NCBI RefSeq assembly: GCF_025290835.2
Contig: NZ_JAOCQD020000003.1
Span: 744,001-808,000 of the forward strand
Source of the DNA: Aquabacterium sp. OR-4
GTDB lineage: Bacteria; Pseudomonadota; Gammaproteobacteria; Burkholderiales; Burkholderiaceae_C
Length of the DNA stretch: 64,000 nt
Direction: 5' to 3'
This document shows, piece after piece, positions 9,272 to 30,336 of this stretch. The notes under the pieces are model-generated. The model ran no database searches. It was not told where the DNA came from and worked only from the letters and a program-made list of their open reading frames with translations. Position 1 is the first letter of the stretch. Every line of letters starts with the position of its first letter. The position numbers and the translations under genes were made by a program.

Positions 9272-10162
9272 TCACGATTTGACGCCGCCGGCGGTGAGGC
9301 CGGCCACCAGCCAGCGCTGCATCAGCAGGAACATCAGCGTGAGCGGAATGCCGGCCAGCAGGGCGGTGGCGGCGAAGTCGCCCCACAGGTAGCGCTGGTT
9401 GAACAGGAACAGCCGCGAGCCCACCGCCAGCGTCAGCTGCTGTTCGTCGTGCAGCAGCACCGAGGCCAGCGGGTACTCGATCATCGCGCCCAGAAAGCCC
9501 AGCACGAACACCACCGCGATCACCGGCCGCGCCAGTGGCAGCAGCACCAGCACAAAGGCCTGCCAGCGGCTGGCGCCGTCCACCACGGCGGCTTCTTCCA
9601 GGTCTTCGGGCACGCTCTCGAAGTAGCCCTTGATCAGCCAGATGTGCTGGGCCACGCCGCCGCAGTAGGCCAGCACCAGGCTCCAGTGGCTATTGAGGCC
9701 CAGCCAGGGCAGCCACTCGCCCAGGCGGTCGAAGATGGCGTACACCGCCACCAGGGCCAGCACCGCCGGAAACATCTGCAGCAGCAGCATGCTGGTGAGC
9801 GTGAACTGCCGGCCGGCAAAACGCAGGCGGGCAAAGGCATAGGCCGCTGTCAGCGACAGCAGCAGCCCGGCCGTGGCGCTGGCCAGCGCCACCTTCAGCG
9901 AGTTGGCAATCCACTGCAGCACCGGAAACGGCGGCGGCACCAGGCGGCCCTGGGCGTCGAAGACCGGCAGGCCCAGCGCCAGGCGCCAGTGCTCGAAGCT
10001 GATCTCGCGCGGGATCAGGCTGCCGCCGGCAAAGTTGCCCGGCCGCAGCGAGATCGACACGATGCTCAGCAGCGGCGCCAGGCTCAGCGCGATGAACAGC
10101 AGCAGCGCCAGGTGCAGCGCCAGCAGGCGCCAGCGTTGCGAGGCCTTTTGAACCATGGGCAT
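9272..10162 (-). CDS. malG: MalG-type sugar ABC transporter permease
   Basis: 296 residues, six predicted membrane helices, and the binding-protein-dependent permease EAA loop ([10 protein letters not shown], about residue 190) that docks on the ATPase. Last gene of the GH35-malK-malE-malF-malG run, 33 bp after malF. MalG family members form the inner-membrane channel with MalF. The locus context (GH35, GH42, GH53) points to galacto-oligosaccharide rather than maltose transport, matching the role of GanG in the enterobacterial gan cluster. The substrate is inferred. Confidence 0.88.
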
Positions 10163-10195
10163 GCGGGGTTCTCCTGGAAGGGGCGCGCGGGCGGC

Positions 10196-11833
10196 TCAGC
10201 GGCGGGCGCCGAACAGGCGCAGGTTCACCACCGCCAGCAGCGCGACGATGGCAAACACCAGGGTGGAGATGGCGCAGGCCAGCGCGAAGTTCTGCCCGCC
10301 ATCGGAGAACGCGATGCGGTAGGTGTAGCTGGCCAGCAGGTCGGTGGCGCCCACCGGCACATCGGTGTCGAGGTAGTCGGGGGCGCCCTCGGTGAGCAGG
10401 GCGATCAGCGTGAGGTTGTTGAAGTTGGTCGCGAACGAGGCGATCAGCAGCGGCGCCATCGGCCGCGCCACCAGCGGCAGCGTGATGCGGCGCAGGTTGT
10501 CCAGCGGGCCGGCGCCGGCCATCGCCGAGGCTTCGTACAGGTCTTCGGGGATGGCCTTCAGCAGGCCCATGGCCAGGATCATCATGTACGGGTAGCCCAG
10601 CCAGGTGTTGACCACCAGCACCATGCTGCGGGCCAGCGTGGCGTCGCTGAACCAGCCCGGGCGGATGCCCAGCAGCAGGTCGAGCACCAGGTTGATCTCG
10701 CCCAGGTTCTCGTTGAACAGGCCGCGGAAGATCGGGATCGAGATGAAGGCCGGCACCGCATAGGGCAGGAACAGCGCCACGCGGTAGAAGGCCTTGCCGC
10801 GCAGCGCCTCCCAGTTCAGCGCCACCGCCAGCAGCAGGCCCAGGCCGAAGGTGAGCAGGGTGTTCAGCGCGGCGAAGGCCAGGGTCCAGGCGAACACGCG
10901 CGCAAAGGGCCCGAAAAAGCGTGCGTCGCCGAAGATGCGGCGGTAGTTGTCCAGGCCCACCGCGGTGCGAAAGCCCGGTTCGAGCGCGCGGCCTTCGGCG
11001 TCACGCCACTGGCCGGCGGCGTGGTCGGCCCGCACCGGGCGGCCATCGGTCAGGTCGCGCAGCGTGGCCGCGTCGATGCGCTGGTAGCGCGGCGACTGGT
11101 CGGACACCCGGTGCAGGCTGGCCAGGCGCCAGGCCAGGCCGTCGGGGCTGTGGAAGTCGAGCGCCTGCAGCGCCGGCAGGCGCGCCACCAGCTCGCGCGC
11201 GGTCAGTGCGCGGCCGCGGGCGGTGTCGTCGGGGCCGGCTTCGCGCAGCGCGATGCGCGGGCGTGCGGGCGGCGCGGCGGCCGCCAGGGCGGCGCCGGGC
11301 TGCGCGAGGGCACGGTCGGCGCCCTGGGCCGTGGCCTCGAAGGGGGCGCTGACCCAGGCGCGGCCATCGTCGCCGTGCAGCCAGGCCTGCAGCGGGGCGT
11401 CGGGCGCCGGGCCGGTGCGGTGCAGCGCGATGTCCATGCCCAGGCCGCGGCTGTCGGTGCGCTCGAGCAGCACGCGGGTGGCGCGGTCGAAGTCGAGCAG
11501 GTGCTGCGAGCTGTAGTTGGTCAGGCCGATGGCCACCGTGAAACCCATCGGCAGCACCACGAACACCAGCACCGCCAATACGCCGGGCAGCACGTAGCGC
11601 CAGGCCTGCAGGCGGCGCATGCACTGCACCATCAGCAGCAGGCCGGCGGCCAGCAGCAGGCCCAGGGCCCAGCCGGGCTGGCGCAGGCGCCACATCTGCT
11701 GGGCCAGGCCCAGCAGGCCCAGCACGGCGCTCAGGGCCAGTGCATGCAGCGCCAGTGCGCTCCAGCGGCTGGGGTCGGCCCAGTGGCCTCGGGGCGCCTG
11801 CCCGTTGGGCTGGCGCGCTTTGGCGGGCCTCAT
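10196..11833 (-). CDS. malF: MalF-type sugar ABC transporter permease with large periplasmic loop
   Basis: 545 residues. After three N-terminal helices comes a periplasmic insert of about 160 residues (about 130-290), equivalent to the MalF P2 loop that caps the binding protein. The channel domain then carries the EAA-type loop (Y-E-A-S-A-M-A-G-A-G). The ATG at 11833 overlaps the malE stop by 4 bp (ATGA), deciding the start and indicating translational coupling. The large P2-like loop is typical of proteobacterial MalF and its GanF relatives. Confidence 0.88.
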   Translation of the reverse strand: MRPAKARQPNGQAPRGHWADPSRWSALALHALALSAVLGLLGLAQQMWRLRQPGWALGLLLAAGLLLMVQCMRRLQAWRYVLPGVLAVLVFVVLPMGFTVAIGLTNYSSQHLLDFDRATRVLLERTDSRGLGMDIALHRTGPAPDAPLQAWLHGDDGRAWVSAPFEATAQGADRALAQPGAALAAAAPPARPRIALREAGPDDTARGRALTARELVARLPALQALDFHSPDGLAWRLASLHRVSDQSPRYQRIDAATLRDLTDGRPVRADHAAGQWRDAEGRALEPGFRTAVGLDNYRRIFGDARFFGPFARVFAWTLAFAALNTLLTFGLGLLLAVALNWEALRGKAFYRVALFLPYAVPAFISIPIFRGLFNENLGEINLVLDLLLGIRPGWFSDATLARSMVLVVNTWLGYPYMMILAMGLLKAIPEDLYEASAMAGAGPLDNLRRITLPLVARPMAPLLIASFATNFNNLTLIALLTEGAPDYLDTDVPVGATDLLASYTYRIAFSDGGQNFALACAISTLVFAIVALLAVVNLRLFGARR

Positions 11834-13025
11834 GCGGGGCCTCCACCGGCCACGCGGCGGGCGGCGCGGCCCAGCGCGTCGGTCACGGTCTCGCGGCCCT
11901 GGGTGACGCTTTGCACCGCGGCGTTCATGGCGCTCCAGTAGCGGCTCATCTCGGGGATGTTGGGCATGGGCTCGCCCACGCTGGCGGCGGCCATGGTGCC
12001 GCTGACCAGGGCGTCGCCGCTGCGCAGCTGCTCGGCCAGTGCCAGGTTGGCCGGCACGCCCAGCGGCACATGCGCATGCATGGCGCGCAGGCCGGCTTCG
12101 CTGATCAGCCAGTGCTCGATGAACTCGGCCGCCAGCACCGGCTGGCGGCTGGCGGTGGCGATCATCGCGCCCAGCACGCCCACCATCGGCCGGCCGGGCT
12201 GGCGCTGGATGCCGGGCAGCGGCGCCGCGGCCACGCGCAGGCCGCTGCGGCGCAGGTTGTTCCAGGCCCACGGGCCGTTGATGGTCATGGCCACGCGGCC
12301 TTCGTTCATGGCCGCTTCGCTTTCGGCATAGGTGGCCGTGCGGGGCACCAGGCCTTCGTCGACCAGGCGCTTGAGCAGGCCCAGGCCACGCTGCGAGCCG
12401 GCATGGGCGACGCCGTTGTCGGCGGCGTTCCAGCTGCCATCGGCGCGGCGGGCAAAGGCATAGCCGCCACCGGCCGAGACCAGGCCGTAGGCGTAGTAGA
12501 ACTCGTTGTAGGGCCACATGATGGCGCGGCGGCCGCTGCTGCGCAGGCGGCGGTCGATGGCGAACAGCTCATCCCACTGGCGTGGCGGCTCGGGCACCAG
12601 GTCGAGGTTGACCAGCAGGGCCACGCTCTCGATGGCGATGGGCCAGCCCCAGATGCGGCCGTTCAGCCGCCAGGCCGACCAGGCCAGCGGCGAGATCGCA
12701 TCCAGGGTGCGGCGTGCCGGGGCCACCGGCCGGATCAGGCCCGAGGCGGCCCAGCCGCCGGCGCGGTCATGGGGCCAGATCCAGATGTCGGGGCCCTTGC
12801 CGGCGGCCGAGGCCTGCTCGAACTTGGACACCGCGCCTTCCGGGTGATCCACCCGCACCGGCACGCCGGTGTGGCGGGTGAAGGCCTCGGCCATGCGGGC
12901 GATGCCCTCGTAACCCTTGTCGCCATTGATCCACACCACCAGCGGCGCTGGGGCCTGGGCGCGCAGGCCGGGGGCCAGGGCCAGGCCGCTGGCGGCCAGG
13001 CTGCCCTGCAGTGCCAGGCGGCGTT

Positions 13026-13029
<4 letters not shown>
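11830..13029 (-). CDS. malE: MalE-type periplasmic oligosaccharide-binding protein
   Basis: 399 residues with a signal peptide (about 1-25). It is unusually close to E. coli MalE along its length: W-I-N-G-D-K-G-Y at the mature N-terminus, H-D-R in the first lobe, T-I-N-G-P-W-A-W in the second, and M-P-N-I-P-E-M-S near the end. Residues equivalent to maltose contacts (Asp14, Lys15, Trp62, Asp65, Arg66, Glu111, Glu153, Tyr155, Trp230, Trp340 of mature E. coli MalE) all appear conserved by eye. The locus nevertheless suggests beta-1,4-galacto-oligosaccharides, as for GanE. The start overlaps the malK stop by 4 bp. Confidence 0.9.
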
Positions 13030-14200
<1,171 letters not shown>

Positions 14201-14201
<1 letters not shown>

Positions 14202-16654
14202 CAGGCGCTTTCGCTGGCGCTGGGCGCGGGCGCCAGCAGCCGCAGCTGGCGTTCGAGCGACAGGCTGGCCTGGGCGATGCCGGCGCCGGCGATGCGCGCG
14301 CCCGGCTCCAGAAACACCGGCAGCTGCGCATCCAGCGGCAGGATGCTGACTTCGATGCGCGGGCGGTGGCCCTGGCCCAGCCAGCGGTGCAGGCCGATGG
14401 TCCACGGCGAGCCGTCGCCGAAGCGGTCGTCCACCAGCACGCCGTCGACCCACAGGCGCGCCACGTCGCCATGCCACTGCAGCTGCAGCCAGGCGCGCTC
14501 GCCGGCGGCCGGCTGGCAGGCCAGGTCGTCGGGCAGCGGCAGCCGCCAGCGGCCGGCCTGGGCGTGGTGGGCTTCGTCGGGCACCAGGGGCACCGGGCCG
14601 TCGCGCCAGGCCACCGGCGGGCCCCAGCGCAGCGGCGCGGGCGCGCCGGGCGGCTGCAGGCAGGACGGGGTCAAGGCCCAGGGGCCGGCAGACGGATCGG
14701 CGGGCCAGTGGCGCACCGCCCAGCCGGCCTGGCCCGCTGGGTCGGCGCTCATGCCGGGCAGGGTGAGTTCGTCGGCCGGCCACACGGCCAGCTCGGCGGC
14801 CTGGTGGCCGGCGCGCAGCAGCACCGGGCCGTCGGCCGGCAGGCTGGCCAGCGGGTGGCTGCTGCGCAGCAAGCGGTCGCGGCCCTGCCAGTGCAGGTGC
14901 TGGCAGCGCTCGGCGTCGGCCTGGGGCAGCAGCAGCAGGCGGTGGCGGCGGCCAGCGGCATCGGTGGCGATCAGCAGGGCCGGCGCGGCCAGCGCGGGGG
15001 CATGGGCCAGCGTGCCGCCGGCGCAGGGCTCGGCGGCCAGCGGGCCGTGGTCGAGCGTGGCCAGGCCCTCGGCGTCGAGCACGATCTCCAGCGGCACGCC
15101 CGGCAGGGCCACCAGCACCAGCACCTCGCTGCCGTCGCTGTCTTGCCAGCGGGTGAAGGGTTGCAGCGTGGCGTGGCGCAGGCGCGCGGCGCCCAGGCGC
15201 AGGCCCAGCGGCCACACGAAGGCCATGCCGGGCTGCAGGTGCAGCGGCTGCTTCAGCGGCAGGCCCAGCGCGGTGCCGGCGTCGGTTTTCAGGCTCAGCC
15301 GCAGCGGCTCGCTGGGCGGCAGGGCATGGTGGCGCACATGGTGGTTGAAGAACAGGAAGCCGTGCAGATCGGCGCCCTGCGCCCCCAGTGCGCGCAAGGC
15401 CACGCGCGGCAGGCGGCGGTCGGCCGGATCGAACGGGCCGGTCTCGGGCAGCACCGCCGGCAGGGGCGCGAGCTGGTCGCCGAAGGCGGCGCACAGCTGG
15501 TGCAGCAGGCGCAGCCGGCCCCAGGCCGGCCGCACCTGGCCGTACTGGCCCAGCGGCGCCTGGAAGTCGTAACCCCATTGCGGCACGTCGTTGGGATAGC
15601 CGGTGGCCTGGGTCTCGTTCAGCGGCCCGGTGGGGCAGACCGGGTTGGTGCCGCCGTGGTACATGTAGTAGCCGTACAGGTTGGCGCCTGAGCCGATCTG
15701 CACCAGCGCGGTGGCGTAGGCATCGTCGGCGGTCACCACCGGGCGGCGGTGGTAGCTCTGGTGCATGCCGCCACCGGCCTCGGCCAGGCAGAAGGGGTAG
15801 CGCGCCGGGTCGATCAGGCCCTGGGCCGGCGTGCCGTCGACATTGCCCATTTCGCCGATCACCCGCCGGGTGTTGAACAGGAACACGCCCGACGGCGGCA
15901 GCGGCTCGCGCGAGCCCTGCCAGAAGCCGTCGGCATAGGCGCCCGAGACCGGCAGCACCTCGCGCGCCGGGATGTCGAGCGTGGGCCATCCGGTCACGGT
16001 GTACAGCGGCACGGTCAGGCCGGCCATCACGGCCAGGCGCTTGAGCTCGGCAATGTGCTCGGCGCCGCAGCCGGGGCCCTGGCTGCCGTATTCGTTCTCG
16101 ATCTGCAGGCCGATGACCGGGCCGCCGTCCTGCCACAGCAGGCCTTGCACCTGCCAGCCCACCTGGGTGTACAGCGACTGCACGCGGGCCAGATAGGCGG
16201 GGTCGTTGCAGCGCAGCGGGCCGCCGCCGGCCACCAGCCAGCGCGGAAAACCGCCATGCCGCACCTCGGCATGCACCCACGGCCCGGGGCGCAGGTAGAC
16301 CATCAGGCCGGCTTCGTGCGCCAGCTGCACAAAGCGGCGCAGGTCGCGCTGCCCATCCCACTGCCACTGGCCGGGCTGCGGCTCGTGGTGGTTCCAGATC
16401 ACGTAGCTGGCCACCACGGTCACGCCGCCGGCGCGCAGCTTGGCCAGCTCGAGCGGCCACTCGTCGGCCGGGCAGCGGCTGTAGTGAAACTCGCCCATGA
16501 TCGGCAGCCAGGGGCGGCCATCGAGCTCGAGGCCCTGGCTGTGCACGGCCAGGCTGCGCCCGGGGCGGCCATGGTGGCCCAGGTTGAGGAAGTCGCGCTC
16601 GGGCGGCTCGGCTTGGGCCGGCACACGCAGGGTCAGAGAAGAGAGAGGGCTCAA
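14201..16654 (-). CDS. GH35 beta-galactosidase
   Basis: 817 residues. Family GH35 hallmarks: F-H-Y-S-R near residue 56, I-W-N-H-H-E-P, R-P-G-P-W-V-H-A-E, the acid/base motif Q-I-E-N-E-Y-G (Glu188), and a probable nucleophile at Glu292 (C-L-A-E-A-G). No convincing signal peptide, so it is probably cytoplasmic. The start is a TTG at 16654: the frame is closed by a TAA only 12 bases upstream and no in-frame ATG occurs before the catalytic core. First gene of the ABC operon; a palindromic operator lies at 16667-16678 just upstream. Confidence 0.9.
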
Positions 16655-16666
16655 GAGCGGCTTGGA

Positions 16667-16678
16667 TTAAACGATTAA
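16667..16678. promoter_or_regulatory. LacI-family operator O1 (upstream of GH35 operon)
   Basis: TTAAACGATTAA, a palindrome with a central CG, in an otherwise GC-rich background. It matches two further copies (16862-16873 and 19504-19515) and sits just downstream of the predicted GH35 promoter, where a bound repressor would block transcription. The LacI gene at 23729 is the likely binder. Confidence 0.75.
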
Positions 16679-16687
16679 GTCTCGCAA

Positions 16688-16716
16688 ATTGCACTCCGCC
16701 GAGACCGGGCTGGCAA
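16688..16716 (-). promoter_or_regulatory. Predicted promoter of the GH35-malKEFG operon
   Basis: On the minus strand a -35 box TTGCCA (16711-16716) is separated by 17 bp from a -10 box TGCAAT (16688-16693). Initiation would fall about 10 bp before operator O1 and about 25 bp before the TTG start. Boxes were assigned by eye. Confidence 0.5.
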
Positions 16717-16826
16717 TCAGGGAAAGTCCCTGGGTGGGGCCAGACATTGTCGCATTCTCCTCGTACGACAGCGTCTGGCGCGGGCCAGTGCGCAGGCCGG
16801 GCCGGGCGCCGACGCGGGGGCATCGG

Positions 16827-16856
16827 TTGACAAGGCGGTTCGCGATTGCGTCCAAT
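16827..16856 (+). promoter_or_regulatory. Predicted promoter of GH42
   Basis: Perfect -35 box TTGACA (16827-16832), 18-bp spacer and -10-like TCCAAT (16851-16856). Initiation would fall at about 16863, inside operator O2, so LacI binding would occlude the start site. The predicted transcript leader before the first ATG is only about ten bases. Confidence 0.5.
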
Positions 16857-16861
16857 CCAAG

Positions 16862-16873
16862 TTAAGCGATTAA
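16862..16873. promoter_or_regulatory. LacI-family operator O2 (abuts the GH42 start)
   Basis: TTAAGCGATTAA, identical to O3 and one base different from O1. It ends directly against the ATG at 16874, so operator and translation start are contiguous. Confidence 0.78.
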
Positions 16874-19234
16874 ATGATGCACATGGACAAGCCTGAACCT
16901 CTGCCTGACACGGCCGCGCAACTGCCCGGGGCCCAACAGACCGGCGTGCAACCGACCGGCGTGCAACCGACCGGCGTGACTCAGCCCGGGGCCCCGCATC
17001 CCGGCGCCCAGCCGCCCGGTGCTCACCAGCCCGCCACCGAGGCCCCGCTTACCGCCCAGCCGGCCGCGCCGGGACTGGCGCCTGAAACGGCCTTGCCGCC
17101 CCTGTCGCTGGGCGTCTGCTACTACCCCGAGCAGTGGCCCGAATCGCGCTGGGCCGCCGATGCGCGCGCGATGCGCGAGCTGGGCCTGCAGACGGTGCGC
17201 ATTGCCGAGTTCGCCTGGTCGCGCATCGAGCCCGAGCCGGGCCGCTTTGACTGGGCCTGGCTCGACCGCGCGATCGACACGCTGGCCGCCGAGGGCCTGA
17301 AGGTGGTGCTGGGCACGCCCACCGCCGCCCCCCCGGCCTGGCTGGCGCTCGACCATGGCGATGTGCTGCCGCTCGACGCGCGCGGCCGCGCCAAGGGCTT
17401 TGGCTCGCGCCGGCACTACTGCTTCAGCAGCCCGTCGCTGCATGTCGCCACGCGGCGCGTGGTGGAGGCCATGGCGCGGCGCTACGGCGCGCACCCGGCG
17501 GTCATCGCCTGGCAGACCGACAACGAATACGGCTGCCACGACACCACGCTGAGCTACAGCCCGGCGGCGCTGGCGGCGTTCAGGCGCTGGCTGGCCGAGC
17601 GCTACGGCACGGTGGCGGCGCTCAACCAGGCCTGGGGCACGGCCTTCTGGGGCCTGCAGCTGCGCAGCTTTGACGATGTGGGCTTTCCGGTGGGCCTGCC
17701 GGCGCCCGCGCTGCCGGCGCACGAGATCGACTGGCGGCGCTTTGCCTCCGACGAGGTGCTGCGCTTCAACCGCCTGCAGACCGGGCTGCTGCGCCAGCAC
17801 GCGCCGGGCCGGCCGCTGCTGCACAACTTCATGGGCCTGTTTGCCGATTTCGACCACCATGCGATGGCCGACGATCTGGATGTGGCGGCCTGGGACAACT
17901 ACCCGCTGGGCCACACCGAGGTGGCGCCCTTTCTCGACGAGGACGAGCGCCTGCGCTGGGCGCGCACCGGCCATCCCGACCTGGCGGCCTTTCACCACGA
18001 CCTGTACCGCGGCATCGGCCGCGGCCGGATGTGGGTGATGGAGCAGCAGGCCGGCCCGGTGAACTGGGCGCCGTGGAACGCCCTGCCCCAGCCGGGCATG
18101 GTGCGCGCATGGACCTGGGAAGCCTTTGCCCACGGCGCCGAGCTGGTGTCGTACTTCCGCTGGCGGCAGCTGCCCTATGCGCAGGAGCAGCTGCACTCGG
18201 GCCTGCACCTGCCCGATGGCCGCCGCGACAGCGGTGCCGACGAGGCCGCGCAGGTGGCCAGCGAGCGCCACGCACTGCTCGCGGCACTGGCCGGCGAGGC
18301 CGGCCTTGCCCGCCCGGCCATGGCCGCGGCGCCCGGGGCCGCTGAAACCCGGGCCGCTGCCGCCGATGCCGCCGCTCAGGCCCTGGCCACGCAGCCGGCG
18401 CGCGTGGCCTTGCTGATCGACTACCCCTCGCTGTGGATGGCGCAGATCCAGCCGCACGGGGCCGACATGGCGCCGCTGGGCCTGCCTTTTGCCTACTACT
18501 CGGCGCTGCGCCAGCTGGGACTGGACATCGACCTGATCGGCCCGCAGACCGAGCTGTCGGGCTACGCGCTGGTGGTGGTGGCCGGCATGCTGCATGTGGA
18601 CGACGCACTGGCCGCGCGCTTGACCGCGGCCCAGGCCGTGGTGGTGCTGGGCCCACGCACCGCCAGCAAGACGGCGCACATGGCGATCAGCGATCCGCTG
18701 CCGCCCGGGCCGCTGGCGGCGGCGCTGCCGATGGCCCTGCGTGGCGTGGAATCGCTGCGCCCCGGACTGCGCGTGGCGCTGGTGCCTGGCGGCGCCGGTG
18801 GCGGTGGCGGCGGTGGCGGTGGCGGTGGCGGTGGCGGTGGCGAAGGCCAGGCCGCGTCCCATACCCGGCGCTGGCGCGACCTGCTCGAGCCGCAGCGCGA
18901 CACCCAGGTGCTCGACCGCCACGCCGATGGCTGGCCGGCCCGCCTGGCCCGCGGCCGCTGGCAGGCCCATGCCGGCGTGGTGGATGCGGCCACGCTGCAG
19001 CGCTGGCTGGCCGATGCCGCCCGCCAGGCCGGCCTGGCCCCCCAGGCCTTGACGGCCGGCGGCAGCGGCCTGCGCCTGCGCCGCCGCGGCCGCTGGCAGT
19101 TCGCGTTCAACCACGGCCCGGGCACGGCCAATGTGCCGGCCCCGCCCGATGCGGTGTTTGCGCTGGGTGGCCGCGCCCTGCCACCCGCCGGCGTGGCGGC
19201 CTGGCTGTTGCCGGAGCCGGCGTCCATGGCCTAG
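16874..19234 (+). CDS. GH42 beta-galactosidase
   Basis: 786 residues. The GH42 barrel begins near residue 75 ([10 protein letters not shown]); acid/base Glu218 lies in T-D-N-E-Y-G, and the nucleophile is Glu390 in [11 protein letters not shown]. The trimerisation and C-terminal beta domains follow. GH42 enzymes release galactose from beta-1,4-galacto-oligosaccharides in the cytoplasm (GanB in Dickeya). Two oddities: a repetitive Pro/Gly/Gln N-terminal extension of about 70 residues, and a run of 15 glycines (residues 642-656) coded by a GGTGGC hexamer repeat. Starts at 16874, 16877 and 16883 are all possible; none has a ribosome-binding site. Confidence 0.9.
18797..18841. repeat. GGTGGC hexamer microsatellite coding for poly-glycine
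   Basis: Fifteen consecutive GGT/GGC codons, mostly alternating as the hexamer GGTGGC, inside the GH42 gene between its second and last domains. Gain or loss of hexamers would change linker length by two residues without shifting the frame. Confidence 0.85.
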
Positions 19235-19637
19235 CCACGGCGGCTGACTCGGCCGGCCTCGGCGGCTGCAAGGGCTGGCGCCAAGGCGGTTCGGGCCGGG
19301 TCCCGAAATGGCCTGGACTGGGCTTGGATCGGGCCCGAACAAGGCCCGGACAAAGCTCGGACAAGGCCCCGGTGAGTGCCCCGGTCAGTGCCTCAAGAGA
19401 GCGCTCGATCCGGCCGCGCCGGCCGCCTGTTGGGCGCCAGCGCCACACAGCCGGGTATGCCCCGATACGCAAGCACCGCCACAGGCCAACAATGCGCAAA
19501 AGCTTAAGCGATTAAGCCGCGCCAAAAATCAAACCGATACCCAAGGATTGCAGGTGCAGCCTGCAACAAGGCGATTCATCCGGCTGCCGCTGGATGAATC
19601 GTTTGACCCGTTCGACCACGACCCCACGGAGACCCGC
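19235..19637. other. Intergenic leader of the TonB receptor gene
   Basis: A 403-bp stretch without a credible gene. It holds three imperfect copies of an 11-bp unit (19337-19369, consensus GGACAAGGCCC), then the operator O3, then about 120 bp of leader before the receptor ATG with a GGAG element just upstream. An open frame runs in from 19308 but lacks a sensible protein before the signal peptide. Confidence 0.7.
19504..19515. promoter_or_regulatory. LacI-family operator O3 (upstream of TonB receptor)
   Basis: TTAAGCGATTAA, identical to O2, flanked by C and G so the palindrome is 14 bp. A possible -10 element AACAAT lies at 19488-19493, again placing the operator at the transcription start. 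It ties the receptor to the GH42/GH35 regulon. Confidence 0.75.
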
Positions 19638-22319
19638 ATGCGCCAATCCCTTCCGAGCCGTCCCCTGCGCCTGAGTCTGCTGATCCACGCCATCTGCTGC
19701 CTGCCGGCGCTGGCCGGCGCGCAGACCGCCAGCACCACGCCGCCGGCCGCGGCAACCGCGGCCACCGCGAGCACCACGGCAACGGCCGGGCCGGACGCGG
19801 CGTCGGCGCAAAGCGTCACCGTCACCGGCATTCGCGCGGCCATGCGCAGCGCGCTGCAGAACAAGGAAAACGCCACCGGCCAGGTGGAGGTGATCGCCGC
19901 CGAAGACATCGGCAAGCTGCCCGACACCACCATTGCCGAATCGCTGGCCCGCCTGCCCGGCCTGGCCGCCGGGGTCGACCGCGGCAACGCCAGCCAGGTG
20001 GTGGCGCGCGGCCTGGGCCCGCGCTTCATCGGTGCCACGCTCAACGGCCGCGAATTCGCCACCACCGAGCCCGACCGCGCGGTGCGCTTCGAGATGTTTC
20101 CCAGCGAGTCGATCTCGGGCGCCACGGTCTACAAGACCCAGCAGGCCGACATCGTGGAAGGCGGCATCGCCACCACCATCGATCTGCAGACCGTCTCGCC
20201 GCTGGCCCACAGCGCGCGTGCGGCCTCGCTGAAGGCCGACGCGGTGTACTACCAGCTCAGCAGCCAGATCGATGGTGCCAAGAAGGTGGCGCCGCGCCTG
20301 GGCGGCATCTACATCGACCAGTTTGCCAACCGCACGCTGGGTCTGGCCATCGCCTTCAGCCATTACGACCAGCCCTCGGTGGAAGACAGCCTGCGCAACT
20401 GGGGCTTCAACGAGAACAACAACGACCCCGCGCTGGGCAAGGAGTCCTGGGGTTTCCAGCACAAGGTCAAGCGCGGCACCAACACCCGCTCGTCGGTGCT
20501 GGCCAAGCTCGAGGCACGGCCCGGCGCCGACTGGCTGCTCAGCGCCGACCTGTACCACGCGCGCTCCAAGATCGACGAGCCCGAGCTGTACCACACGGCC
20601 GACACCGGCAACTGGAACGGCTGGCGCAGCGGCAGCTTCAGCCAGGTGCAGCGCGACAACGGCTACATCACCGGTGCCACGCTGGCCGGCGCCTCGGTCA
20701 ACACCATCCAGGGCCTGTGGCAGCAGGACATGCGCAACCTGGCCGGCGGCCTGAACGCCAAGTGGAAGCGCGGCGCCTGGTCGCTCGAGGCCGATGTGGC
20801 CAGCTCGCGCGCCGACCGCGACACGCTGTGGTCGGCCGTGGCCCTGAACCTGCCCGCCAGCGGCGCGCTGAGCTGGAACTTCGCCCGCGACCAGTGGATG
20901 AACTACAGCTTCAGCCAGGACACCGGCAACCCGGCCGGCTACGCCGGCGCCATCTCCGAGACCTGGGGCCCCACCTACAGCGGCCGGCTGAAGGATGAGC
21001 TCGATTCGCAGCTGCTCACGCTGAGCCGCAAGGTCGACGGCAGCCCGCTCAGCAAGCTGAGCGTCGGCCTGCGCGCCACGCAGCGCGAGAAGGGCTACGA
21101 GCAGGTGTCGTGGAACTACGGCAGCAATGCCAGCATCACCGCCGCCGACCTCAGCCGCGTGCAGGTGGACGGCCGCCCCGACTTCGTGGCCCTGCAGGGT
21201 GATTTCCGCGCCGCGGTGGCGCGGCTGTTCGGCGCCTCGGCGCTCAGCGCCGCCGGCCGCAGTGCCACCGACAGCGATCTGCGCGACCGCAACTGGCGCG
21301 CCGCCGAACGCAATCTGGCGCTGTTTGTGCAGGGCGATTTCAGCGGTCAGCTGGGCGGCCTGGGCTGGCGCGGCAATGCCGGCCTGCGCGTGGTGCAGAC
21401 CGAGCAGACCGGCTACGGCATGTCCTGGCTGCCCGGCGCCAGCACGCTCACCGCGGTGTCCGACGGCCTCAAGCACACCCGCGCCCTGCCCAGCGCCAAC
21501 TGGGTGCTGAGCCTGGACGAGCGCGACGTCAACCAGCTGCGCCTGGGTCTGGCGCGTGCCATGTCGCGTGCGCCGCTGGATGTGATGAGCGCGGCACAGA
21601 CGATCTGGATCGACAACAGCGGCCCGCAGCCGGTGGCCCGCATCTCGGGCGGCAACCCGCGCCTGAAACCGATGATGGCCGACCAGATCGACCTGACCTT
21701 CCAGCGCTTCTTCGCCAAGGGCGGCCTGCTGTCGGCCGGCCTGTTCTACAAGAAGGTGTCCGACTACATCGGCATGAGCAGCGTGGCCGGCACCTGGGGC
21801 GGCCAGCAGGCCTTCTTCACGCAGCAGATCAATGCCGGCAAGGGCCATGTCTCGGGCCTGGAGCTGGTCTACCAGCAGGCCTTCAGCACCCTGCCCGAGC
21901 CCTGGAACGGCCTGGGCGTGTTTGCCAACTACACCTACACCCGCAGCAGCATCCAGGAGAACGGCGACGCCTCGGGCGCCAGCTTCCGGCCCATCGCCAC
22001 CAACGGCCTGATGAAGGACAACGGCGGCCTCACGCTGTGGTACGAGCGCCAGGGCTTCGAGGCGCGGCTGGCGGTCAACCACCACAGCGCCTACAACCGC
22101 GCGCCCACCTGGGACTCGACCCGCTTCCAGATCAACGGCGCCGAGACCTGGGTCTCGCTGAACCTGTCGCAGAAACTCACCGACCAGTGGCAGCTGCGCT
22201 TCGGCGTCGAGAACCTGGGCAACCAGACCGTCACCTACACCGACCCGCTGAACCCGGTGAACCAGGAGAACTTCCGCTTCGGCCGCCGCATCAACGTGGG
22301 CGTGAGCTACAAGCTCTGA
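19638..22319 (+). CDS. TonB-dependent receptor (Xanthomonas/Caulobacter type)
   Basis: 893 residues: signal peptide (about 1-28), Ala/Thr-rich spacer, plug domain starting with V-T-V-T-G-I-R-A-A-M-R-S-A-L (about 65) and containing I-G-K-L-P-D-T-T-I-A-E-S-L-A-R-L-P-G, then a 22-strand-type barrel ending in a typical aromatic outer-membrane C-terminus (G-V-S-Y-K-L). The plug motifs match the carbohydrate-linked subfamily common in Xanthomonas and Caulobacter. Between GH42 and GH53 it probably takes up galactan oligomers, replacing the GanL porin of Dickeya. ATG 19638 is chosen for the signal peptide and upstream GGAG. Confidence 0.9.
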   Translation: MRQSLPSRPLRLSLLIHAICCLPALAGAQTASTTPPAAATAATASTTATAGPDAASAQSVTVTGIRAAMRSALQNKENATGQVEVIAAEDIGKLPDTTIAESLARLPGLAAGVDRGNASQVVARGLGPRFIGATLNGREFATTEPDRAVRFEMFPSESISGATVYKTQQADIVEGGIATTIDLQTVSPLAHSARAASLKADAVYYQLSSQIDGAKKVAPRLGGIYIDQFANRTLGLAIAFSHYDQPSVEDSLRNWGFNENNNDPALGKESWGFQHKVKRGTNTRSSVLAKLEARPGADWLLSADLYHARSKIDEPELYHTADTGNWNGWRSGSFSQVQRDNGYITGATLAGASVNTIQGLWQQDMRNLAGGLNAKWKRGAWSLEADVASSRADRDTLWSAVALNLPASGALSWNFARDQWMNYSFSQDTGNPAGYAGAISETWGPTYSGRLKDELDSQLLTLSRKVDGSPLSKLSVGLRATQREKGYEQVSWNYGSNASITAADLSRVQVDGRPDFVALQGDFRAAVARLFGASALSAAGRSATDSDLRDRNWRAAERNLALFVQGDFSGQLGGLGWRGNAGLRVVQTEQTGYGMSWLPGASTLTAVSDGLKHTRALPSANWVLSLDERDVNQLRLGLARAMSRAPLDVMSAAQTIWIDNSGPQPVARISGGNPRLKPMMADQIDLTFQRFFAKGGLLSAGLFYKKVSDYIGMSSVAGTWGGQQAFFTQQINAGKGHVSGLELVYQQAFSTLPEPWNGLGVFANYTYTRSSIQENGDASGASFRPIATNGLMKDNGGLTLWYERQGFEARLAVNHHSAYNRAPTWDSTRFQINGAETWVSLNLSQKLTDQWQLRFGVENLGNQTVTYTDPLNPVNQENFRFGRRINVGVSYKL

Positions 22320-22380
22320 GCCGGCACCGGCTGCCTCTGCCACTTACCCCCCGCCCACTGACGCCCGGACGCACCCCACC

Positions 22381-23634
22381 ATGACCCTCAACCGCCGCCA
22401 GCTGAGCCTGGGCCTGGCCACGGCCGCCTGGCTGCCGGGCCAGGCCAACGCCAACGCCAACGCCAACGCCTGCCCACCCGCCGTCACCCAGCATGCGCGG
22501 GGCTTCATCGTGGGCGCCGATGTCTCGATGCTGGAGGCGGTTGAGCACGGCGGCGGGCGTTTTGCCGATGCCCAGGGCCGCCCGGCCGAGGCGTTGGGGC
22601 TGCTGCACGGCGCCGGCTTCGACTGGGGCCGGCTGCGCCTGTGGCACACCCCGGTGAACGCCGACGATGTGCGCGAGGGCGAGCGCCTGGTCTCGCGCCG
22701 CGGCGAGCCGGTGGGCGGCGGCAGCAACGACCTGGCGCTGACCATCCGCCTGGCCCGGCGCCTGCGCCAGCAGGGCATGAAGTGGCTGCTCGACATCCAC
22801 TACAGCGACTTCTGGGCCGACCCCGCCCACCAGCGCAAGCCGCAGGCCTGGCGCACGCTCAGCGGCACGGCGCTGGCCGACGCGGTCCAGGCCTACACCA
22901 CCGAGGTGCTGCTGCGCCTGCACGAGGCCGGCGTGACGCCCGACATGGTGCAACTGGGCAACGAGATCAACGGCGGCATGCTGTGGCCCGACGGCAAGAC
23001 CTGGCGCGAGACGCCCGACGAGGCCATCGGCGGCATGAGCGGCTTTCTGGCGCTGATGGCCGCCGCGGTGCGCGGCTGGCAGGCCGCCGAGGCGCGCATC
23101 GGCCAGCGTGTGCCGGTGATGGTGCACCTGGCCCACCAGGGCGACGGCCGCAGCCGCGAGACCTTCGAGCGCATGTTCGATGCGCTGCGCGACAGCGGCG
23201 CGCGCATGGATGTCATCGGCCTGAGCTGGTACCCCTATTTCCACGACGACCTGGCCAGCCTGCGCGCCAACCTGCAGCACCTGTCTGCCCGCTACGGCAA
23301 GCCGCTGGTGGTGGTGGAAACCGCCTACGGCTGGCAGCTCGATCACCCGGTGGGCGGCGCGGCGATCTTCAACGCCGAGGCCCAGCGCAAGTCGGGCTAC
23401 CCGGCCACGCCGGCCGGCCAGCAGGCCCTGCTGCAGGACGTGGCCCGCGCCGTGGCCGACACGCCGCAGGGCCTGGGCGTCTTCTACTGGGAGCCGGCCT
23501 GGCTGGCCGTGCCCGGTGCGGGCTGGCGCACCAACGACATCAACGGCTGGGCCAACCAGACGCTGTTCGATGCCCGCGGCCGCGCGCTGCCGGGCCTGCA
23601 GGCCCTGCGCGCCGCGGCACCACGCTGCCGCTGA
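22381..23634 (+). CDS. GH53 endo-beta-1,4-galactanase
   Basis: 417 residues. GH53 motifs: G-A-D-V-S-M near residue 42, L-R-L-W-H-T-P-V-N, D-I-H-Y-S-D-F-W-A-D-P, acid/base Glu195 in Q-L-G-N-E-I-N-G-G, and nucleophile Glu313 in V-V-V-E-T-A-Y-G-W. The N-terminus R-R-Q-L-S-L-G followed by a hydrophobic stretch resembles a Tat signal. A short N-A repeat (GCCAAC hexamers) lies at the presumed cleavage region. It cuts the beta-1,4-galactan side chains of pectin, outside the cytoplasm. It starts 61 bp after the receptor gene and is probably in its transcript. Confidence 0.9.
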   Translation: MTLNRRQLSLGLATAAWLPGQANANANANACPPAVTQHARGFIVGADVSMLEAVEHGGGRFADAQGRPAEALGLLHGAGFDWGRLRLWHTPVNADDVREGERLVSRRGEPVGGGSNDLALTIRLARRLRQQGMKWLLDIHYSDFWADPAHQRKPQAWRTLSGTALADAVQAYTTEVLLRLHEAGVTPDMVQLGNEINGGMLWPDGKTWRETPDEAIGGMSGFLALMAAAVRGWQAAEARIGQRVPVMVHLAHQGDGRSRETFERMFDALRDSGARMDVIGLSWYPYFHDDLASLRANLQHLSARYGKPLVVVETAYGWQLDHPVGGAAIFNAEAQRKSGYPATPAGQQALLQDVARAVADTPQGLGVFYWEPAWLAVPGAGWRTNDINGWANQTLFDARGRALPGLQALRAAAPRCR

Positions 23635-23728
23635 ACGCCCGGGGCCGCCCCTGCGGCCGCCCCGGCCGGCCTGGCGCAGTGGCGCGGGTAACATGCCGCG
23701 CCCGCCTCCCCCTACCCACCCCCATTGC

Positions 23729-24760
23729 ATGACCACCCTCGTTGACGTGGCCCGCCAGGCCGGCGTGACCGCCGCCACCGTCTCGAACGTGATGCGCGGG
23801 CGCGGCAAGGTGGGCGAGGCCACCCGCGAGCGCGTGCTGGCCGCCGCGCGCGAGCTGGGCTACCGGCCCAACCTGATGGCCCGCGCACTGGTCGAAGGCC
23901 GGCCATCCACCATCGCGCTGATGGTCAGCAGCATCGCCAACCCGTTCTACCCCGAGTTCGCGCTCGAGGTCGAACGCGCGGCGCGGCGCCAGGGCTACTT
24001 TCTGCTGGTGTGCAACACCAACGACGACCCCGAGCAGGAGCGCGCCTACCTCGACGCCGTGGGCGGTGCACTGGCCAGCGGCGTGATCGTGATGAACGCC
24101 GATTTCGTGGATGCCGACGAGCTGATCGCGCTGCGCCAGCGCGGCATGCCCATGGTGCTGGGCATGTGGGAGCGGCCGCAGGAGCCGCCGCCCATCCCCA
24201 GCATCGCGGTCGACATGGAGCAGGCCGGCGTGCTGGCCGCCGAGCACCTGCTGAAGCTGGGCCACCGCCAGTTCGGTGCCATCGTCGGCAGCGAGGCCAG
24301 CGGCAACCACCGCTGGCGCTTTCGCGGCTTCGAGCAGACCCTGGCGCGCGCCGGCCTGCCGCTGCCGCCGGCCCAGGTGCGCTACGGCCGCGACAGCATC
24401 GACGACGGCCGCAACGCGGCGCACAGCCTGCTGGCCGCCGTGCCCGGCATCACCGCGGTGTTTGCCAGCAACGACCTGCCGGCGCTGGGCGTGCTGCAGG
24501 CGGCGGTAGACCTGGGCATCGAGGTGCCGGCCGAGCTGTCGGTGGTGGGCGTCACCGACATCCAGCTTGCCCACCAGATGCGCCCGGCCCTGACCACCAT
24601 CGCCGTGCCCACCGCCGATGCCGCGCGCCTGGCCGTGCAGCTGCTGCTCGACGAGATCGCGCAGCGCGGCGACGGCCCGGCGCCGATGCTGGTGGCCGAG
24701 CCGCCGCGTCTGCTGGTGCGCGCCACCACCGCCAAACCACGCCGCGAGCGCCAACCATGA
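23729..24760 (+). CDS. LacI-family transcriptional regulator (GanR-like)
   Basis: 343 residues: N-terminal HTH (T-L-V-D-V-A-R-Q-A-G-V-T-A-A-T-V-S-N-V-M) with hinge helix, then a periplasmic-binding-like effector domain (I-A-N-P-F-Y-P-E-F; F-A-S-N-D-L-P-A-L-G). It ends the plus-strand run of galactan genes and is the natural candidate to bind the three TTAANCGATTAA palindromes, with galactose or galactobiose as inducer by analogy with GanR. ATG 23729 places the HTH at the N-terminus. The stop overlaps the next start by 4 bp. Confidence 0.9.
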   Translation: MTTLVDVARQAGVTAATVSNVMRGRGKVGEATRERVLAAARELGYRPNLMARALVEGRPSTIALMVSSIANPFYPEFALEVERAARRQGYFLLVCNTNDDPEQERAYLDAVGGALASGVIVMNADFVDADELIALRQRGMPMVLGMWERPQEPPPIPSIAVDMEQAGVLAAEHLLKLGHRQFGAIVGSEASGNHRWRFRGFEQTLARAGLPLPPAQVRYGRDSIDDGRNAAHSLLAAVPGITAVFASNDLPALGVLQAAVDLGIEVPAELSVVGVTDIQLAHQMRPALTTIAVPTADAARLAVQLLLDEIAQRGDGPAPMLVAEPPRLLVRATTAKPRRERQP

Positions 24761-26900: not shown

Positions 26901-27064
26901 TCGGCGAGGCGGGTCTGCACCCTTTCTGACCCCGGTTCGCGCCGCGGCGTCCACCGGCCCTGGTTCGACACCAGCGCCGGGGCGCCGGGCCCGACGCACG
27001 GCCGCCGTACCCGGCCGCGTGCTCGCCGATCTCCCGTGTGCTGTTGAGCCCTCTGGAGCATCGG

Positions 27065-28462
27065 ATGTTTTGCCACCCCCTTCCTCTCACGGCGCCCGGC
27101 CGGCGCCACTGCGCTGCCGCCTGGGCGCTGGCCGCCGCAGCGCTGCTGGCCCTGGCGCTTGAACCCGCCGGAGCGCAGACCACCGTCGGCCCCCCCGCGG
27201 CCAGCGCCGCGGCAGCCGCCGCGCCCGCGGCCAGCGCCTTGCCACTGACGCTGCGCCAGGCCTTCGACCAGGCCTGGGCGCGCCAGCCCGAGGCCCAGGC
27301 CTTGGCGCATTGGCGCGAAGCGGCCAGCGCCCAGGCCCGCGCGGCCCGCGCCTGGACGCCCGAGCCGGTGGCGCTGGCCGTGGCCGGCAGCAGCGACCGC
27401 TTCACCGGCCAGCAGGGCGCACGCGAGCTCGAGCTGGGTCTGGCCGTGCCGCTGTGGCGCCGCGGCGAGCAAGGCCGCAGCCAGGCGCTGGCCGAAGCCG
27501 AGGCGCAAGCGCATGAAAGCCGCAGCCAGGCCGCCCAGCTGCGCCTGGCCGCCGCGCTGCGCGAGGCCTGGTGGGCCTGGCAGCGCAGTGGCCTCGAGCG
27601 CAGCGCCGCGCGTGCCCAGCACGGCGCGCTGCAGCGCCTGGCCGCCGATGTGGCGCGGCGCCACCGGGCCGGCGCGCTGGCCCGCGCCGACCAGCACCAG
27701 GCCGATGGCGCCCTGGCCGCCGCCGAGGCCGCCCTGGCGCAGGCCGAGGCCGCGCAGCAGGAGGCCGCGCTGCACCTGGCCGCGCTGGCCGGTGTGGCCC
27801 TGCCGGAGCTGGACCGTGCCGGCGCCGCGCCAGCGGCCCTGCCCGAGCCCGAGCCCGAGCCGGAGCCGCAATCCGCGCCCGCCCTGCCAGCGGCCCCGGC
27901 CCGCGCGCCGGACGCCCTGGTGCCCAGCCCCGGCCACGCCGAACTGCGTGCGCTGAACGACCGTCGCCAGCTGGCCGGCGCCACGCTGGCGCTGCTGGCC
28001 ACGCAAGGCCGCGCCAGCCCCGAGTTGACCGTGGCCACCCGCCACGAGCGCCCGGGCCATGGCCTGCCGTACCAGCAAAGCCTGAGCATCGGCGTGCGTC
28101 TGCCGCTGCAGGCCGACCCGCAGCAAGCGGGCCGGCTGGCCGCTGCCCGCGCCGAGGCGCAGGCGCTGCAGGCCCAGCTGGCGCTGGATGCCGCCCGCCT
28201 GGCGGCCGAACAGGCCGCGGCGCGCGTGCGCACCACCGGCGCCCAGGCCCAGCTGGCCGCCGCCGAGCGCCGCGCCCGGCTGGCGGCCGAAACCCGCGGC
28301 TTCATCGACCAGGCCTTCCAGCTTGGCGAGGCCGACCTGCCCACCCGGCTGCGGGTGGAGGCCGAGGCGGCCGAAGCCGGCCTGCAGGCGCAGCGCGCGC
28401 GCATCGACCTGGCCGCCGCCGTATCGGCCTGGCGCCAGGCGCTGGGCCTGCTGCCGCCATGA
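27065..28462 (+). CDS. czcC: CzcC-like outer-membrane efflux protein (TolC family)
   Basis: 465 residues with a signal peptide (about 1-35), an Ala-rich spacer, then two long coiled-coil repeats rich in Ala, Gln, Arg and Glu (about 70-250 and 290-460), as in outer-membrane factors. A P-E-P-E-P-E-P-E linker separates the halves. GGAG six bases before ATG 27065 decides the start over GTG 27038. It would form the outer-membrane channel of the RND system coded downstream. Confidence 0.85.
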   Translation: MFCHPLPLTAPGRRHCAAAWALAAAALLALALEPAGAQTTVGPPAASAAAAAAPAASALPLTLRQAFDQAWARQPEAQALAHWREAASAQARAARAWTPEPVALAVAGSSDRFTGQQGARELELGLAVPLWRRGEQGRSQALAEAEAQAHESRSQAAQLRLAAALREAWWAWQRSGLERSAARAQHGALQRLAADVARRHRAGALARADQHQADGALAAAEAALAQAEAAQQEAALHLAALAGVALPELDRAGAAPAALPEPEPEPEPQSAPALPAAPARAPDALVPSPGHAELRALNDRRQLAGATLALLATQGRASPELTVATRHERPGHGLPYQQSLSIGVRLPLQADPQQAGRLAAARAEAQALQAQLALDAARLAAEQAAARVRTTGAQAQLAAAERRARLAAETRGFIDQAFQLGEADLPTRLRVEAEAAEAGLQAQRARIDLAAAVSAWRQALGLLPP

Positions 28463-28509
28463 ACCACGCCACCCGCCAGCGCGCCCCCCTTTCATCAGGA
28501 CTCTTCACC

Positions 28510-29118
28510 ATGACCCCCTTCACCCGCCTGACCCGCCGCGGCCTGGCCGCCACGCTGCTGGCCGGCAGCCTGGGCACCCTGGCCGACGCAGGTCATGACC
28601 ACGGCCCGGCCCAGCCCGCCGTGGCTGGCGCCGCGCTGCCGCGTTTTGCCGCGCAGTCCGATCAGTTCGAGCTGGTGGGCGTGCTCGATGGCCGCCGGCT
28701 GAACCTGTACCTCGACCGTTTTGCCGACAACGCGCCGGTGCCCGGTGCGCGCATCGAGCTCGACCTGGCCGGCAGCCGCCACAGCGCCCAGCCGCAGCCC
28801 GACGGCAGCTACACCCTGCTGTTGAAGGCCGCGCCCGCACCGGGCCTGCTGTCGGTGACCGCCACCGTGAGCCTGGGCGCCGAGGTCGACCTGCTGGCCG
28901 CCGACCTGGACGTGGGCGCGCCGGCCCATGCCCACGGGGCTGAGCCGGGGCCGGGCGGCTGGTTCACGCCCGCCCGGCTGGGCGGGGCGCTGGGCGCCGT
29001 GGGCGCAGGGCTGGCCCTGGCCCTGGCCCTGCTGCTGAACCGGCTGCGTCGGCGCCTGGCAAGCACGGCGCCGGGCGCCGCCGCCGCGCCCGCCGGCACC
29101 GTGGGAGAGTCCGCATGA
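28510..29118 (+). CDS. Periplasmic accessory protein of the RND metal efflux operon
   Basis: 202 residues. Signal-type N-terminus, His-containing start of the mature part (G-H-D-H-G), a beta-rich middle (about 55-145; F-E-L-V-G-V-L-D-G-R-R-L-N-L-Y-L-D), a second His pair (H-A-H-G) and one C-terminal membrane helix (about 160-180) with a basic tail. No family assigned with certainty. It lies between the TolC-like and adaptor genes, suggesting metal binding or delivery to the efflux complex. An upstream ATG at 28459 overlaps the czcC-like stop, but AGGA precedes 28510. Confidence 0.65.
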   Translation: MTPFTRLTRRGLAATLLAGSLGTLADAGHDHGPAQPAVAGAALPRFAAQSDQFELVGVLDGRRLNLYLDRFADNAPVPGARIELDLAGSRHSAQPQPDGSYTLLLKAAPAPGLLSVTATVSLGAEVDLLAADLDVGAPAHAHGAEPGPGGWFTPARLGGALGAVGAGLALALALLLNRLRRRLASTAPGAAAAPAGTVGESA

Positions 29119-30326: not shown

Positions 30327-30336
30327 GGGCGCCGCG

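Follow-up and report, generated by a model that had tools for sequence, protein, structure and literature searches.

Positions 9272-24760 of a 64,000-nucleotide stretch from Aquabacterium sp. OR-4 (contig NZ_JAOCQD020000003.1, positions 744,001 to 808,000; here called the window) contain genes for a GH53 galactanase, a TonB-dependent receptor, GH42 and GH35 beta-galactosidases, a MalEFGK-type importer and a LacI-family regulator. The locus raises two questions, namely whether these genes are switched together for the use of galactan, and whether they represent a modified form of the gan clusters known from enterobacteria, as an earlier note on this DNA had proposed. The results suggest that the genes very probably constitute a self-contained regulon for the use of beta-1,4-galactan, a pectin side chain, or of its oligosaccharides, and that this regulon would be switched by a LacI repressor with a TVSN recognition helix through a palindromic operator. 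Descent from the enterobacterial gan clusters is not supported, and the comparisons point to a separate betaproteobacterial regulon that resembles gan and occurs sporadically in the family.

Three putative operators and their transcription units

Exact copies of the 12-bp palindrome TTAANCGNTTAA occur three times in the genome of 6,634,285 bases, and all three are located at this locus, at positions 16667, 16862 and 19504, which are the positions given in the earlier note. There is no further match in the window and none in 100 shuffles; a reversed control pattern has one copy in the genome, and independent bases at the GC content of the window predict 0.11 copies. The genome-wide scan thus found every exact copy at the locus, and not the many unrelated copies that the earlier note had named as evidence to the contrary. 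With one mismatch allowed against TTAANCGATTAA, only the sites C2:962643 and C4:647869 were added genome-wide. No regulon query matched in the surroundings of these two sites (L035 and L036), where inspection of the DNA by eye gave no link either, and they were dropped as candidates for additional regulon members.

The genes are arranged as a GH35-malK-malE-malF-malG set on the minus strand, followed on the plus strand by GH42 and by a receptor-GH53-lacI set (Table 1). The five genes starting with GH35 very probably form one operon, because they are consecutive on the minus strand with 4-base overlaps, as observed at malK/malE and malE/malF. In the receptor-GH53-lacI set, the gaps are 61 bases between the receptor and GH53 and 94 bases between GH53 and lacI. 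There is one palindrome per inferred transcription unit, as the earlier note had described. The first is upstream of GH35-malKEFG, the second touches the called ATG of GH42, and the third ends 122 bases before the ATG of the receptor gene. Since the receptor gene heads the TonB-GH53-lacI unit with operator 3 ahead of it, the repressor gene lies within its own presumed regulon. According to PMC4052901, a central CG is found in most LacI-family motifs of even length, and autoregulation applies to 72% of the LacI factors examined there. The locus is similar to the local regulons described there in its CG-centred even palindrome, its local extent and its putative autoregulation, with three palindromic sites near the operon of the regulator and one of them ahead of the lacI unit.

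Table 1. Genes, putative operators and predicted promoter of the locus (window coordinates)
Feature	Position	Strand	Basis
malG-type permease, end of GH35 operon	9272..10162	-	NCBIfam MalG 433 bits (cut-off 261); 60% identity to E. coli MalG
malF-type permease	10196..11833	-	NCBIfam MalF 523.7 bits (cut-off 392); start set by translation
malE-type substrate-binding protein	11830..13029	-	SBP_bac_8 (Pfam); NCBIfam MalE 436 bits (cut-off 291); pocket residues unlike those of the alpha-glucan paralogue
malK-type ATPase	13026..14201	-	ABC_tran and MalK OB fold; NCBIfam MalK 419 bits, under cut-off 568
GH35 beta-galactosidase	14201..16654	-	Pfam GH35 1.7e-60; relatives with solved structures; start codon uncertain
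Operator 1 (putative), TTAAACGATTAA, for GH35-malKEFG	16667..16678	.	Pattern search; equivalent position in relatives
Predicted GH42 promoter, TTGACA - 18 bases - TCCAAT	16827..16856	+	TTGACA 12/12, CCAAT 10/12 divergons
Operator 2 (putative), TTAAGCGATTAA, directly past predicted -10 box, touching called GH42 ATG	16862..16873	.	Pattern search and divergon comparison
GH42 beta-galactosidase, long Pro-rich N-terminal extension	16874..19234	+	Pfam GH42 1.4e-138; translation
Operator 3 (putative), TTAAGCGATTAA, for receptor-GH53-lacI unit	19504..19515	.	Pattern search
TonB-dependent receptor	19638..22319	+	TIGR01782 TonB-Xanth-Caul 526 bits (cut-off 310); Plug and barrel
GH53 endo-beta-1,4-galactanase (predicted)	22381..23634	+	Pfam GH53 8.1e-94; solved endo-1,4-galactanases as relatives
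LacI-family repressor (predicted), recognition helix Ala15 Ala16 TVS Asn20	23729..24760	+	Pfam LacI and Peripla_BP_3

The GH35, GH42, TonB receptor, GH53 and LacI genes named in the earlier note were all matched by Pfam at the place given. The MalEFGK-type importer is also present, with MalE and MalK matched by Pfam and MalF and MalG above the NCBIfam cut-offs, but it is located at 9272-14201, outside the interval of 14201..24760 to which the note had assigned it. The GH53 model PF07745 was matched over its full length, positions 1-340 of 340, and the LacI protein contains a helix-turn-helix domain (PF00356, 5.4e-18) and a periplasmic-binding-like sensor domain (PF13377, 3.1e-33). Judged by eye, the TonB receptor and GH53 have starts that resemble signal peptides, and none was seen on GH35 and GH42. 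The N-terminus of GH42 (16874-17100) contains about 70 extra residues that are rich in proline and include a repeated QPTGV unit, and there is a poly-Gly run in its C-terminal part. The GH42 proteins of relatives such as those at L006 and L007 start near one particular stretch of 10 residues.

Conservation of the repressor, the operator and the target genes

Genes in the related genomes were called by reading-frame length, third-codon GC and BLAST, not by full annotation. A scan of genome contigs with the window LacI identified 25 loci, of which 24 are betaproteobacterial and one (L030) contains a protein from Atribacteria with 36% identity. The palindrome is present at 23 of the 25 loci. The two misses are L030 and L014, the latter a contig of 5.9 kb whose genome holds four palindromes on other contigs, at a GH35/GH42 divergon and before malE. 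On this comparative evidence, it is very likely that the genes form one regulon under the LacI of the locus, and the earlier description of a full beta-galactan gene set with three putative LacI-type operators holds. The regulon thus appears to be real and well supported by comparative genomics, and to be biologically ordinary in kind.

Altogether, 64 exact palindromes were found in 20 distinct genomes with a LacI of the window type (G000, G004, G008 and 17 others, G717 and G836 being counted once because their sites coincide). Most of them (53) adjoin LacI, GH35, GH42, GH53 or Mal-type genes, two more are on the LacI contig of G549 in surroundings that were not fetched, and nine are located elsewhere, with one each in G828, G829, G830, G839 and G840 and two each in G549 and G838 (two of the nine, G839 C3:514510 and G838 C11:30400, were not fetched). 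In a subset of 12 genomes (G000, G004, G008, G828-G834, G837 and G654), 37 of 40 copies are beside regulon genes. In the more distant genomes, several copies outside the main locus lie next to a second LacI of this type, which is accompanied by MalK and GH42 at L117 and L118 and by MalF/MalG-like genes at L111, or are located at MalK-GH42 (L123). L117 and L118 are from Chitinibacteraceae genomes, each with a second TVSN LacI-MalK-GH42 system that has its own palindrome. Palindromes without regulon-type neighbours are found at L114, L116, L119, L120 and L121; the copy at L115 is inside galT, and the one at L122 has a remote LacI about 1 kb away.

The layout common to relatives from Roseateles, Mitsuaria, Paucibacter and Rubrivivax consists of GH35-malKEFG divergent from GH42-galT-galK-lacI, with an operator at each promoter and another operator before GH53-TonB receptor. 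In 8 of the 24 betaproteobacterial loci, the galTK genes separate GH42 from LacI, and GH35 is present in 13 of the 24. GH35 is part of the locus in its betaproteobacterial form, and not an addition to gan as the earlier note had suggested. An operator directly precedes GH53 in 11 fetched loci (L032, L034, L069, L093-L097, L099, L100 and L102), and the receptor gene comes next after GH53 in nine of these, the exceptions being L034 and L069. In another five loci (L017, L018, L026, L101 and L103), GH53 is downstream of malG on the same strand. Roseateles-type loci also contain a second, distant GH53 (32-36% identical) near malG, for example at L094:4854-5885 and L097:13148-14179.

Judged from gene order, the window is a rearranged form of this layout in which the receptor gene is before GH53, lacI is after it, and galTK are not in the locus. 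The switch, consisting of LacI and the operator, seems to stay while other parts change, as in a plasmid of Burkholderia cepacia ATCC 25416 (L069), which contains a TVSN LacI (54% identity) and operators before GH53 and before malK together with a different importer. The plasmid locus also contains GH42 and a nearby GH28 gene, and it adjoins an istB gene of the IS21 type.

The promoter region was compared in 12 divergons that were chosen because they have two operators between GH35 and GH42; L015, with one operator, L113, a contig fragment, and other layouts were left out. The sequence TTGACA is located upstream of GH42 in all 12, and CCAAT directly precedes the operator in all except L012 and L103. 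In the window, TTGACA at 16827 and TCCAAT at 16851, which were read against the promoter consensus, are separated by 18 bases, and the operator starts 5 bases after the second box. Because the operator is placed directly behind the predicted -10 box, the repressor would cover the transcription start, and operator 2 is predicted to represent almost the entire GH42 leader, provided that the ATG at 16874 is right. Looping between the two operators of the divergon was considered but is not claimed, as their spacing is 156-273 bases (between centres, 12 loci) and the helical phasing was not significant (Rayleigh R 0.45, p ~0.09).

Proposed function and substrate

From the gene content, the exclusive placement of the palindrome in the genome and the conservation of repressor, operator and targets, we infer binding, direction of control, inducer, localisation, transport and substrate as follows. 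The secreted GH53 would cut the galactan polymer, and the fragments would cross the outer membrane by the TonB receptor, be bound by MalE and be imported by MalFGK. In the cytoplasm, GH42 and GH35 would release galactose, which the products of galK and galT, encoded elsewhere in the genome, may pass to the Leloir pathway. When no inducer is present, the TVSN-class LacI would bind as a dimer to the palindrome that directly follows the -10 box and block GH35-malKEFG, GH42 and receptor-GH53-lacI, the last of which would amount to autorepression. Imported galacto-oligosaccharide or galactose is the presumed signal for the release of LacI.

Several observations weigh against this reading. The galT and galK genes of this genome are outside the locus, 20 kb to the left of the window and beside another LacI; their region (L040) contains no exact palindrome, and they were dropped as regulon members on this ground. 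The window receptor shares only 27-29% identity with the receptors encoded after GH53 in relatives (its identity to the receptor downstream of the galactan genes of G654, at L103, is 55%). The palindrome is also present in relatives that lack the locus, with 32 of 120 relatives holding it, and G001 and G013, from the same genus, have one palindrome each with no regulon gene nearby. The locus is sporadic. Among 399 genomes of the family, 7 have a LacI match at E <= 1e-100, of which two may not belong to the window type, and of 120 relatives, 4 have GH53 over the cut-off, one of these with a partial match. The MalE of the regulon passes the cut-off of the maltose model and keeps 13 of 20 maltose-contact positions of the maltose-binding protein, including 12, 14, 62, 66 and 210, which are lost in enterobacterial GanE. 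Finally, GH53 is absent from 6 of the 21 searched genomes with LacI, namely from Ideonella and five Paraburkholderia and Oxalobacteraceae genomes.

Because LacI is present in these genomes without GH53, a general beta-galactoside may have been the older ligand. The alternative that survives best, which we consider possible yet rather doubtful, is a general beta-galactoside regulon, for lactose or galacto-oligosaccharide, into which the GH53 and TonB genes were drawn later, with galactan as one source. All five Paraburkholderia and Oxalobacteraceae genomes searched have GH42, the TVSN LacI and the palindrome, together with a different ABC importer. However, GH53 is present in the remaining 15 of the 21 genomes, it has its own operator in the 11 loci listed above, and the operator 3 unit of the window holds GH53 together with an outer-membrane receptor. 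This alternative is partly compatible with the galactan regulon that we prefer, and the odds of the two overlap.

The importer of the proposed galactan regulon deserves separate consideration. MalE, MalF and MalG are above the NCBIfam cut-offs for maltose equivalogs and MalK is below, with beta-galactosidases as neighbours, which serves as a warning that proteins passing maltose-transporter models may sit among beta-galactosidases. Seven of the 20 maltose-contact positions (44, 61, 63, 154, 156, 341 and 344) are changed in the regulon MalE relative to E. coli MalE. A paralogous MalE of this genome (C1:787590) also exceeds the maltose cut-off; its gene is next to those for glycogen phosphorylase and GlgB, and at 9 of the 20 positions, among them 153, 155 and 330, which are kept in the regulon MalE, its residue is not that of E. 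coli MalE. The second MalE/MalF/MalK system (L104, G000:C1:783500-793500) is likely an alpha-glucan importer. The MalE pocket was rejected as proof of specificity, since A63P and changes at 341 are also found in the alpha-glucan paralogue. At positions 44, 154, 156 and 344, the change resembles the enterobacterial gan proteins, and only these four are suggestive of specificity.

Relation to gan and to the LacI recognition code

The earlier note had read the locus as a variant of the Dickeya and Yersinia gan clusters, which presumably contain MalEFGK-like transporters, GH53/GH42 and a GanR repressor. The gan-type loci compared here are from Klebsiella, Pantoea and Aeromonas, not from Dickeya or Yersinia; a class-wide GH53 search, in which 8 of 369 genomes matched and three exceeded the cut-off (this genome and two with partial matches whose surroundings were not read), yielded no gan cluster for comparison. 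Klebsiella pneumoniae CP125156 and Pantoea agglomerans NZ_CP059091 contain malK, malEFG-type genes, GH53 (in Pantoea matched by tblastn, with no gene listed), GH42, an EIIB gene, a maltoporin gene and a LacI gene. The shared logic consists of a galactanase, ABC import of oligosaccharides, GH42 and a LacI-family regulator, and the window carries the gan hallmark of GH53, GH42 and a MalEFGK-like importer. However, gan has a maltoporin where the window has a TonB receptor, with no porin such as GanL among the genes identified at 9272-24760, and there is no GH35 among the annotated gan genes.

That the locus is a true relative of enterobacterial gan, in which a TonB receptor has taken the place of the porin, is nevertheless highly improbable, and the earlier view of a gan variant with swapped parts is not upheld. 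The same classes of enzymes, importer and regulator are present in both, the four MalE positions change in the direction of GanE, and MalK is about equally near to both (47-54% identity to gan, 49% to E. coli) and so not informative. However, the GanR proteins of Klebsiella and Pantoea are only 27-28% identical to the window LacI, have a YQTVSR helix and join E. coli LacI in the tree (100/100), whereas the window LacI is in the TVSN group and is thus not a GanR orthologue. The gan-type stretch of Aeromonas has no match to the window LacI, and TTAANCGNTTAA is absent from all three gan-type loci. The identities of MalE, MalF and MalG are 27-31%, 36-37% and 35-36% to the gan proteins, the MalF matches covering residues 292-539 only, compared to 42%, 45% and 60% to the E. 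coli proteins. In the MalG tree, gan represents a separate long branch (100/100), and the branching among the window group, E. coli MalG and the paralogue from this genome is not settled by the tree. The GanEFG-type transporter lineage is hence not matched.

Similarities to other systems are more general. The ganSPQAB genes of Bacillus subtilis, a Gram-positive bacterium with no outer membrane, encode GH53, GH42 and an ABC importer. The window shares with them the presumed use of galactan, yet its MalE scores far below the cut-off of the GanS model (142 bits, cut-off 700). In carbohydrate loci of the Xanthomonas/Caulobacter type, the usual inner-membrane partner of the TonB receptor is a single-gene transporter. 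The window is similar to such loci in that a TIGR01782 receptor is located beside enzymes and a regulator, and differs from them in that the inner-membrane step is a MalEFGK ABC importer. PMC5472308 describes ganSPQAB as a galactan-use operon, and PMC4052901 names BgaR and GanR as galactoside regulators. A literature search in a partial library listed no work on galactan regulons from Roseateles or Burkholderiales, and a prior listing in RegPrecise is possible.

The TVSN helix is unique to the window LacI among nine readable of the ten LacI domains in this genome (L062 being excluded). All 24 betaproteobacterial LacI loci have Ala16 and Asn20, and 32 TVSN rows are on one side of a branch with 100/100 support in the tree; apart from this branch and the grouping of GanR with E. 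coli LacI, the joins in that tree are unsafe because of long branches. According to PMC2978694, Arg at AA-20 pairs with G at NT-6, and there is a link between AA-15/16 and NT-5/4. The window LacI is outside the TVSR majority class reported there, with Asn20 and T at NT-6 instead of Arg20 and G. The pairing of Asn20 with T at the outer operator base is consistent with the published LacI code; it comes from a single clade, however, and is thus one evolutionary observation, which counts against it. A remote LacI (28% identity) at L038 (G049:C21) has Ser at AA-20 and is located near TTAATCGGTTAA, a possible second case without Arg20.

The chances seem about even that the TVSN LacI and its TTAANCGNTTAA operators represent a master switch, distinct and possibly unreported, for the use of beta-galactosides and galactan in Burkholderiales and Chitinibacteraceae, in which regulator and operator are fixed, the importer, TonB receptor and GH53 are exchanged or rearranged in convergence on gan, and the reading of T at NT-6 by Asn20 extends the LacI code beyond the Arg20 class. 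The interest lies in the breadth and fidelity of the LacI-operator pair and in an independent route to a gan-like regulon. The locus also gives a testable assignment of regulator, operator and substrate for a repressor group across several betaproteobacterial families, and with it the recognition code could be tested on a natural case other than the Arg20 class. That the palindromes are instead promoter debris or operators of another factor is very unlikely. The remote LacI with Ser at AA-20 near a similar site speaks for this, but the palindrome tracks the TVSN LacI across families and is carried also by the second same-type LacI copies (L111, L117 and L118).

To the left of malG are a cNMP-binding regulator and an anthrone-oxygenase-like gene, which are regarded as unrelated. 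To the right, at 27038-33471, there is a large gene that by eye is RND-like, together with outer-membrane efflux and HlyD-type genes, and these perhaps represent a metal or drug efflux set.

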